A stretch of 48,628 nucleotides of DNA from a bacterium (GTDB lineage Bacteria > Patescibacteriota > Minisyncoccia > CAIUEV01), in assembly GCA_021779915.1 (NCBI GenBank), contig JAJXZR010000002.1, positions 1-48,628 on the forward strand, given 5' to 3'. Made by a program: the position numbers and the translations under genes. The notes below the pieces were generated by a model. That model did no database searches. It saw only the letters and a program-made list of their open reading frames with translations, and was not told the origin of the DNA. Positions within the stretch are counted from its first letter, which is position 1. The number at the start of each line of letters is the position of its first letter. Positions 196-36,035 of this stretch are shown here, piece by piece.

Positions 196-280
196 GGAGA
201 GGTGGCTGAGTGGTCGAAAGCGCTTGATTCGAAATCAAGTGTGTCGCAAGGCACCCAGGGTTCGAATCCCTGCCTCTCCG
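196..280 (+). tRNA. tRNA-Ser (CGA)
   Basis: Acceptor ggagagg/cctctcc, anticodon arm cttga-ttCGAaa-tcaag, long variable arm, T-arm ggttcgaatcc. Confidence 0.95.
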
Positions 281-285
281 CTCAT

Positions 286-26804: not shown

Positions 26805-27075
26805 AAAAAATTTCCAATTTTCAAACAATTTTCAAGTTTGCAATTTCATAATTATATAAACAAAACCCCCCGTGTCATTCCTGCGAAAGCGGGAATCCAG
26901 GAAAGTAATACTATATTAGTTTAATATAATTCTCCTGGATCCTCGCTTTCGCAAGGATGACACGCTGGGAGGGTATTATTTAAAAAATTGAGAATTTAAA
27001 TCATTGAAAATTGTTTGAAAATTGTCTCCTTAGGCGACCCGCCTAGGGCGGGAAAATTAGAAATTGAAAATTTGT
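26805..27075. repeat. Nested inverted repeats: outer caattttcaaacaattttcaa IR around a REP-like pair (26871-26963)
   Basis: Left outer aatttccaattttcaaacaattttcaa; right outer ttgaaaattgtttgaaaattg; inner gtgtcattcctgcgaaagcgggaatccagg / cctggatcctcgctttcgcaaggatgacac. Confidence 0.75.
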
Positions 27076-27078
27076 TAG

Positions 27079-27164
27079 GCCGTGGTGGCGGAATTGGTAG
27101 ACGCGCTAGGCTTAGGACCTAGTGTTATTCAAATAACTTGGGAGTTCGAGTCTCCCCCACGGCA
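27079..27164 (+). tRNA. tRNA-Leu (TAG)
   Basis: gccgtgg..ccacggc acceptor, ctagg-ctTAGga-cctag anticodon arm, long variable arm, gggagttcgagtctccc T-arm. Confidence 0.96.
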
Positions 27165-27193
27165 CAAAAATCGTTAAGAATTGGCAAAGCCAA

Positions 27194-27259
27194 GGAGTTC
27201 GCCAGGTTATCCAACCTGGCGCCCCGTCGTATGACTGGGGCGAGTCTCCCCCACGGCAC
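27194..27259 (+). repeat. Duplicate of the tRNA-Leu 3' end (T-arm to acceptor) interrupted in the T-loop by a ~39-nt double hairpin
   Basis: ggagttcg[ccaggttatccaacctggcgccccgtcgtatgactgggg]cgagtctcccccacggcac versus tRNA ggagttcgagtctcccccacggcac. Confidence 0.9.
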
Positions 27260-27460: not shown

Positions 27461-28399
27461 ATGGTAAAAGAAAATCAAAAAGAGGACTTAGAAGAAAAAC
27501 TTATCGAGGAGCTGGAAGGGGGTTATGAAGAAGAGAGTGGTGGAGGTAAGAAACTTCTTCTTATCGGGGGAGTTGTTGCGGTAGTTTTGGTTCTGGTGGC
27601 GATTATTCTTTCTCTTGTGGGAGGAGGAAAAAGTTCAGTAAATAGCAATGAGAACTCTTCTAATCAAAATGCTAACGTAACCGCACAAAGCACGGTCGAT
27701 AACCAGAAACCCTCAATTGTTTATCAGGACGATTTTAGTCGGGATCCTAATTCAGATACAGCCAAGAAGGCGGGTGAACCAAGCAATCCTTATCCTGATA
27801 AAACCAGTGGAGCGAGGGTTCCGGTTGATAAGCAGGGTAATTCTATCGAAGGAATGCCTATTCAAAAGAGCTTGATGATTGACGATCGGGAGAATCCTTT
27901 TCGCTCTATGAATACAATTGCGGGGGACATATATGATCTAATGGAAATTAATTTTTATAATTCGGAAAATAAAGCTTTGACACTCGGAGATTTTATTGGA
28001 AGAACCAGAATGGAAATGCCCCAGGACTTGCTTAACAAATTGGATGGAACATATCGCGTTCTGATGTATCGAGGCCAAGACGAGAAAGGGCCGGGATCGG
28101 CTTTAATTTTCTCTTCTTCGCTTGACAAATCCCAAATGGATGCCCTTATGACTCAATGGGAAAAAACAATGGTAAATAACCTTCGACCTTTTGTTTTAAT
28201 CGGTCTTAAAAAAGATTTCGTAGAAGCATCCGGCAAAAAGGATTTTGAGAGTAGTGGACTGTTTCCAGGAGGGAGATTCGTTGACTTTTCTAAAGATGGC
28301 ATCGTGTCTCTCAATTACGTTGTTTCTGGGAAGTATATTATTATCGCTAATAGTCGTTCTTCTTTTGAAAAAGCAATCTCTTTGGTTGAAAAAAAATAA
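27461..28399 (+). CDS. Single-TM hypothetical protein
   Basis: Acidic N-terminus then GGKKLLLIGGVVAVVLVLVAIILSLV. Confidence 0.65.
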   Translation: MVKENQKEDLEEKLIEELEGGYEEESGGGKKLLLIGGVVAVVLVLVAIILSLVGGGKSSVNSNENSSNQNANVTAQSTVDNQKPSIVYQDDFSRDPNSDTAKKAGEPSNPYPDKTSGARVPVDKQGNSIEGMPIQKSLMIDDRENPFRSMNTIAGDIYDLMEINFYNSENKALTLGDFIGRTRMEMPQDLLNKLDGTYRVLMYRGQDEKGPGSALIFSSSLDKSQMDALMTQWEKTMVNNLRPFVLIGLKKDFVEASGKKDFESSGLFPGGRFVDFSKDGIVSLNYVVSGKYIIIANSRSSFEKAISLVEKK

Positions 28400-35853: not shown

Positions 35854-35920
35854 GAGCCGCTTGTCAGACTCGCCAGGTCATTCGACCTGGCGCCCAGTCG
35901 TATGACTGGGCGAACTGACG
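35854..35920 (-). repeat. Duplicate of the tRNA-Thr 3' end interrupted in the T-loop by a ~38-nt double hairpin
   Basis: gagccgcttgtcagactcg[ccaggtcattcgacctggcgcccagtcgtatgactggg]cgaactgacg versus tRNA gagccgcttgtcagactcgaactgacg. Confidence 0.9.
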
Positions 35921-35963
35921 TTTGCTATTCTCTGTCTACCTATTTAATATAATGTTAAATCCG

Positions 35964-36035
35964 AGCCGCTTGTCAGACTCGAACTGACGACCTACTGTTT
36001 ACAAAACAGTTGCTCCACCACTGAGCTAAAGCGGC
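35964..36035 (-). tRNA. tRNA-Thr (TGT)
   Basis: Minus strand gccgctttagctcag..actgt-ttTGTaa-acagt..gtcagttcgagtctgac aagcggc. Confidence 0.96.

Follow-up and report, generated by a model that had tools for sequence, protein, structure and literature searches.

Double-hairpin inserts in duplicated tRNA ends of Patescibacteria: probable non-autonomous copies of a tRNA-invading element linked to GIY-YIG nucleases

Introduction

Short palindromes of the REP/REPIN type occur as inverted pairs and disperse non-autonomously, and Rickettsia palindromic elements lie in-frame within ORFs, where they are tolerated. In mitochondrial DNA, the yeast GC cluster GC42 is described as 42 nt long with an AG duplication (PMC4478555), and double-hairpin elements (DHEs) have been cited as mobile (PMC7218506). 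SegB of phage T6 is a GIY-YIG homing endonuclease reported to cut inside tRNA genes at the motif RAWTSGAAC (PMC13096335); in our own reading, which is not that of PMC13096335, this motif would be the complement of the T-loop sequence GTTCSAWTY. In CPR bacteria, insertions in rRNA genes have been reported to encode GIY-YIG proteins and to differ from group I and II introns, with short ORF-less insertions occurring as well, most of them at the top or base of a stem-loop, and the GIY-YIG proteins were judged there to stand outside homing (PMC11270868). Here, a 48,628-nt stretch of a Patescibacteria genome (the window; GCA_021779915.1, contig JAJXZR010000002.1) was analysed, in which partial second copies of two tRNAs are each split in the T-loop by a short double hairpin (DH).

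Structure of the inserts in the window

The first-pass annotation, made from the sequence alone, had described a copy of the tRNA-Leu 3' end split in its T-loop by a double hairpin and the same insert at tRNA-Thr. Direct sequence inspection and ARAGORN bore out both, with the DH at tRNA-Thr running opposite to the direction of its tRNA (Table 1). Each DH spans 42-43 nt and comprises hairpin 1 (core like GTCATNCGAC), a CG, and hairpin 2 (reverse-complement core), positioned inside TTCG/CGA in the T-loop of the partial tRNA copy. At tRNA-Leu, the fragment to the right of the DH is probably the original 3' end of the host gene; a C after position 27259 makes GGCACC, the same as in G001 and G002. 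Neither window copy is accompanied by a GIY-YIG nuclease gene, and Rfam returned only tRNAs in the window, with no family and no group I or II intron ribozyme at the 42-43 nt insert. Dispersed palindromes of the GGATCC...GGATGACA type were also observed at 62-92 and 26937-26963.

Table 1. Positions of the tRNA copies and double hairpins in the window
Feature	Position	Strand	Evidence
Intact tRNA-Leu(TAG), functional copy	27079..27165	+	ARAGORN; Rfam RF00005, 58 bits; syntenic orthologues in G001 and G002
Spacer between intact tRNA-Leu and broken copy, 28 nt	27166..27193	+	sequence
Copied T-arm 5' side and start of T-loop (GGAGTTCG)	27194..27201	+	sequence
Leu insert, hairpin 1, CCAGGTT-ATCC-AACCTGG	27202..27219	+	sequence, folding, covariation
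Leu insert, central CG, reverse complement of target dinucleotide	27220..27221	+	sequence
Leu insert, hairpin 2, CCCCGTC-GTAT-GAC(T)GGGG, with bulged T	27222..27240	+	sequence, folding, covariation
CG repeat (27241-27242) and copy of T-arm 3' side and acceptor (27243-27259) (CGAGTCTCCCCCACGGCAC)	27241..27259	+	identity to intact tRNA-Leu
Acceptor/T-arm 3' fragment of broken tRNA-Thr copy	35854..35872	-	sequence
Second DH	35871..35912	+	R1 model, 69.7 bits
Copied tRNA-Thr T-arm 5' side (CGTCAGTTCG)	35911..35920	-	sequence
Intact tRNA-Thr(TGT), functional copy	35963..36035	-	ARAGORN; Rfam

The earlier judgement that the recurrence was unlikely to be due to chance was upheld by shuffle tests, the 11 copies in this genome, and matches in other genomes. 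Hairpin 1 with at most three mismatches matched the window six times against 0.91 expected (0 of 100 shuffles reached six), and its exact matches in the window are confined to the tRNA-Leu and tRNA-Thr sites. Compared with dinucleotide shuffles, the 69-nt tRNA-Leu region has a fold that is better by 3.3-3.5 sd, and stem pairing is kept by compensatory changes across nine copies of this genome, with a covariation score reached by 0 of 500 shuffles. The presence of 11 DH copies spread over several contigs, and of further copies in G227, whose assembly is a single contig, makes a local assembly fault unlikely. Chance or artefact was thus rejected on the combined evidence of shuffles, covariation, copy number, and matches elsewhere.

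Distribution of the double hairpin

To survey the DH, a covariance model (R1) was built from tRNA-linked copies of one genome; it contains no tRNA sequence except the flanking CG, so a skew towards tRNA sites is not built in. R1 identified 11 DH copies in the 1.12-Mb genome, which has 43 tRNA genes (the count derives from 22 rows over both strands and leaves out L034, a weak extra match not at a tRNA). All 11 copies lie in the T-loop of a partial tRNA copy, and an intact cognate tRNA stands beside 10 of them, the eleventh being at a contig end with its partner tRNA outside the assembly. The linked tRNAs are Pro-CGG, Pro-GGG, Val-GAC, Val-CAC, Gly-TCC, Glu-TTC, Leu-TAG, Thr-TGT, Gln-TTG, and Val-TAC, together with the contig-end copy; in the Pro-GGG copy one hairpin is recognisable and the second is unrelated, and the distal half of the Val-CAC copy does not match its tRNA. 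The majority are of a 3' type, with the intact tRNA followed by a 28-42 nt spacer (near-constant at ~30 nt at most sites) and the broken 3' end, while Gly-TCC and Val-GAC are of 5' types. Tandem duplication followed by DH insertion was rejected as an origin, as in this genome agreement between the flanks of the two copies stops ~0-5 nt past the tRNA. A different locus, L046, looks like a tandem duplication.

R1 matches were also found in 20 of 379 other sampled Patescibacteria genomes. Of 43 sites in other genomes that were read by eye, ~32 lie in tRNA fragments, for the most part in T-loops, and most copies therefore do not sit at random non-tRNA intergenic sites. The T-arm, proposed from the window as the target, is thus the main one, with anticodon loops (tRNA-Ser(CGA) in L055 and L071) and D-loops (L066) used as well, and rarely RNase P RNA (L037, L073, and L083, in three genomes) and 23S rRNA (L063), both identified by Rfam, and long open frames, which the DH enters in-frame (L035, L077). 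Copies nested within the hairpins of another copy were observed at L075 and L007. In addition, a GGAGTTTATCCCGC-like palindrome (GGCGAGATAAACTCC in this genome) occurs in broken tRNA copies of unrelated genomes (L036, L045, L046, L047).

A Y1/REP-associated transposase, whose co-occurrence the first-pass annotation had proposed to look for, is not required, given that Pfam Y1_Tnp was found in 9 of 12 genomes tested and is absent from this genome (G000), G227, and G076, each of which carries several DH copies. A phage origin was likewise rejected: one exact pattern found no DH in viral_contigs, blastn found none in phages, and phage matches to the GIY-YIG protein were only weak.

Junction rule and duplicated dinucleotide

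The junctions follow the rule XY-hairpin1-rc(XY)-hairpin2-XY, in which XY is the target dinucleotide. Flanks other than CG are CA..CA, or TG..TG when read from the opposite strand, and there the central dinucleotide is again their reverse complement, as at L035, L077, L078, the second copy of L079, and the tandem pair of L080. The rule also holds in other hairpin families, with CA/TG/CA at L116 and L118 and TA/TA/TA at L120. Exceptions among R1 sites are L061, L062, and L076, apparently through single transitions, and no clear duplication was seen at L093, L153, and L167. In having a pair of neighbouring GC-rich hairpins and a short duplication of the target, the inserts match double-hairpin elements and GC clusters.

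Empty sites and a replaced tRNA in relatives

Three genomes of the same family carry an orthologue (56-57% identity) of the gene at 27461-28399, which follows tRNA-Leu in the window. In G001 and G002, tRNA-Leu(TAG) lies upstream of that orthologue with no second T-arm copy and no DH, providing empty tRNA loci of the kind that the first-pass annotation had proposed to look for in sister strains; in G003, no tRNA was found within the stretch examined near the orthologue. The earlier idea of a mobile or structure-targeted palindrome at tRNA T-arms is well supported by these empty syntenic sites, the 2-nt target duplication, and the many tRNAs involved, but it is incomplete, since other genomes have a larger unit of which the two palindromes form the junction.

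Replacement of a tRNA was traced in G102 and G158, two genomes of one genus that share another hairpin family (not R1). Over its initial 55 nt, the broken tRNA-Gly(CCC) of G158 is identical (55/55) to the intact G102 gene, whereas the intact tRNA-Gly(CCC) of G158 differs from that gene at many positions. The broken copy is therefore the host's own and the intact one is different, indicating that the working tRNA-Gly(CCC) was replaced. This family has two loci with an ORF and at least five without one, before the intact cognate tRNA, and the matching tRNA-Lys(CTT) locus of G158 is empty of both ORF and DH, its segment being inverted relative to the flanks. Thus, as for homing endonucleases, insertions are present in one genome and absent from a relative, both at tRNA-Leu (G001, G002) and at tRNA-Lys(CTT) (G158). 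Between congeners, an element locus coincides with an inversion in L092 versus L196, and in L106 versus L197/L198 it falls where two tRNA-Gly loci are joined; element loci may lie at rearrangement breakpoints.

These sites also bear on whether the DH is a functional RNA maintained by the host at tRNA 3' ends as a processing signal, terminator, or decoy. Such an RNA would fit the strong fold with compensatory changes and the constant proximity to tRNAs in this genome. However, the DH occurs in both orientations relative to the tRNA, upstream or downstream of it, and copies lie in rnpB, 23S rRNA, and ORFs too; tRNA-Ser (window 196-281) and most other tRNAs of this genome have no DH, and the syntenic tRNA-Leu loci without DH weaken the idea further, leaving it highly improbable.

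Association with GIY-YIG nuclease genes

A larger unit, with the DH marking one of its ends, was seen in other genomes. It is made up of a broken host tRNA, the DH, a small GIY-YIG ORF, and an intact tRNA, so that the palindrome first taken as the whole element is only part of it. A search of 192 Patescibacteria genomes with the L039 protein gave matches in 75 genomes at E <= 1e-12, and 96 GIY-YIG ORFs in 90 loci were scored, a sample that represents the top matches of one query in one phylum. A tRNA lies within 350 nt of 62 ORFs, all 62 being on the strand of the tRNA, against ~2.6 of 96 expected by chance (assuming the tRNA density of this genome and independence, both approximate). The tRNA starts at most 60 nt downstream of 33 ORFs, lies at most 150 nt upstream of 21, and is within 350 nt of 8 more. 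The remaining 34 of 96 have no tRNA within 350 nt, which counts against the nuclease-element reading. Two GIY-YIG loci without a nearby tRNA (L133, L141) contain tmRNA genes, which suggests that tmRNA may also be a target of the element.

The GIY-YIG ORF often extends into the first nucleotides of the tRNA that follows it, and a 5' fragment of that tRNA lies upstream of the ORF in most, though not all, loci aligned. The broken fragments stop in T-, anticodon, or D-loops, with hairpins usually next. A strict test looked for a pair of perfect, directly neighbouring hairpins upstream of the 39 ORFs that have a downstream tRNA, and 14 were positive versus 0.125 expected from shuffles. For ORFs preceded by the tRNA, hairpins tend to come after the tRNA 3' end among the loci listed. 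All five of the closest relatives of the L039 protein adjoin a tRNA, and four of them are beside an R1-type DH. As the ORF sits between broken and intact tRNA in other genomes, its association is probably not incidental. Group I introns (Rfam) were observed on two loci with GIY-YIG ORFs (L096, L102).

The pairing of a tRNA 3' fragment with a restored intact tRNA resembles an attL/attR pair, and the T-loop and anticodon loop are known integrase sublocations, raising the reading that the inserts are remnant att sites of a tyrosine-recombinase integrative element targeting tRNA 3' ends. However, just ~30 nt separates the copies at most sites of this genome, 5' fragments are common in other genomes, the insertion leaves a DH and a 2-nt duplication, and the linked gene is a GIY-YIG nuclease; att remnants are thus scarcely credible.

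An independent palindromic parasite, comparable to the mitochondrial double-hairpin elements or the Rickettsia palindromic elements, deserves more weight. It would target CG or CA in RNA hairpin loops, and GIY-YIG elements would merely supply redundant tRNA copies that tolerate it, in line with the DH copies of this genome lacking a nearby GIY-YIG ORF, the copies in RNase P RNA (three genomes), 23S rRNA, and in-frame ORFs, and the nested copies at L075 and L007. On the other side, unrelated hairpin-pair sequences occupy the same slot in different lineages, between the broken tRNA and the GIY-YIG ORF, which is hard to explain if the DH is independent of the ORF; this alternative is considered unlikely. 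Further points count against the nuclease-element reading: G060 and G010 carry the DH with no GIY-YIG ORF detected, and this genome has, besides a fragment (C28), a single tRNA-linked GIY-YIG ORF (C34), whose protein falls outside the close relatives of DH-linked GIY-YIG proteins. At L047 (G000 contig 34), the genome's own GIY-YIG ORF follows tRNA-Ser(GCT), with a truncated 5' tRNA copy upstream.

The GIY-YIG protein scores above the cut-off for PF01541 in Pfam and consists essentially of this domain alone, while NCBIfam gave nothing over its cut-off. Its structural model has a single domain (83 aa, pLDDT 96); a profile search of structures placed UPF0213 best and SLX1 next, and Foldseek agreed weakly (best E 2.5e-4, TM about 0.56). 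Across 45 sequences, Y15, G17, R25, and H29 are invariant and Y5 and E61 nearly so, indicating an intact catalytic core as in homing endonucleases, whose separate DNA-binding domain, common but not universal, is absent from this single-domain protein. Given that SLX1 enzymes cleave branched DNA, the GIY-YIG protein could plausibly recognise hairpins.

Proposed element and its mechanism

Taken together, the window inserts are, with a probability of roughly 0.68, ORF-less and non-autonomous copies of a nuclease-linked, tRNA-invading Patescibacteria element that leaves a working tRNA, and its complete form probably comprises a tRNA cut in the T-, anticodon, or D-loop, the DH with a short target duplication, a GIY-YIG ORF, and an intact replacement tRNA. 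Beyond the architecture, recurrence, empty sites, duplication rule, and replacement tRNA in one genome pair established here, we infer that the GIY-YIG protein mobilises the element. It would cut tRNA-gene loops, perhaps leaving 2-nt ends XY, and repair of the break would make the two junctions different, one retaining the DH and the other a working tRNA. The ORF-less copies may have been moved in trans or be deletion remnants. Insertions would persist chiefly at sites where a functional tRNA is restored, and this would account for the intact cognate beside almost every broken copy. The intact tRNA retained by the element still has the same loop sequence, a point against the nuclease-element reading, and self-cleavage must somehow be avoided if the model holds.

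A bolder proposal, put forward tentatively and at a little under even odds, is that the element represents a new class among prokaryotic mobile elements. Its minimal GIY-YIG nuclease, similar to UPF0213 and SLX1, would recognise hairpin DNA, cut tRNA genes in their loops, and move a unit with a replacement tRNA, leaving a DH centred on the reverse complement of the target dinucleotide. In the open-access full text searched, no description of the arrangement of broken tRNA, DH, GIY-YIG ORF, and replacement tRNA was found, and the tRNA-invading double-hairpin element is apparently undescribed. If true, the many small GIY-YIG genes linked to tRNAs in uncultured bacteria would gain a likely role, and a selfish element would be seen to attack the most conserved part of tRNA genes while keeping its host alive through the working tRNA that it leaves.

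Comparison with known systems

Like REP/REPIN sequences with their RAYT (Y1) transposase, the DH is an inverted palindrome pair with non-autonomous spread; unlike them, it targets tRNA loops, and several DH-carrying genomes lack a Y1 transposase. By description, it resembles Rickettsia palindromic elements in entering ORFs in-frame and differs in lying mainly in tRNA loops and being linked to a nuclease ORF. The DHEs of Allomyces mtDNA and the GC clusters of yeast mtDNA are, as described, also short GC-rich hairpins thought to be mobile, but they are mitochondrial, and their cited accounts describe neither tRNA-loop specificity nor a replacement tRNA. As with the free-standing SegB of phages T4/T6, the GIY-YIG gene lies beside tRNA genes; in contrast, the ORF in Patescibacteria encodes a GIY-YIG domain and little else, with UPF0213 and SLX1 as its nearest matches, and neither a DH nor a broken tRNA copy is described for SegB in the cited account (PMC13096335). 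Finally, although the words tRNA and hairpin are absent from the main text of PMC11270868, the CPR rRNA insertions reported there come from the same bacterial group and likewise include GIY-YIG-bearing and short ORF-less forms, for both of which the element proposed here would offer a testable hypothesis.
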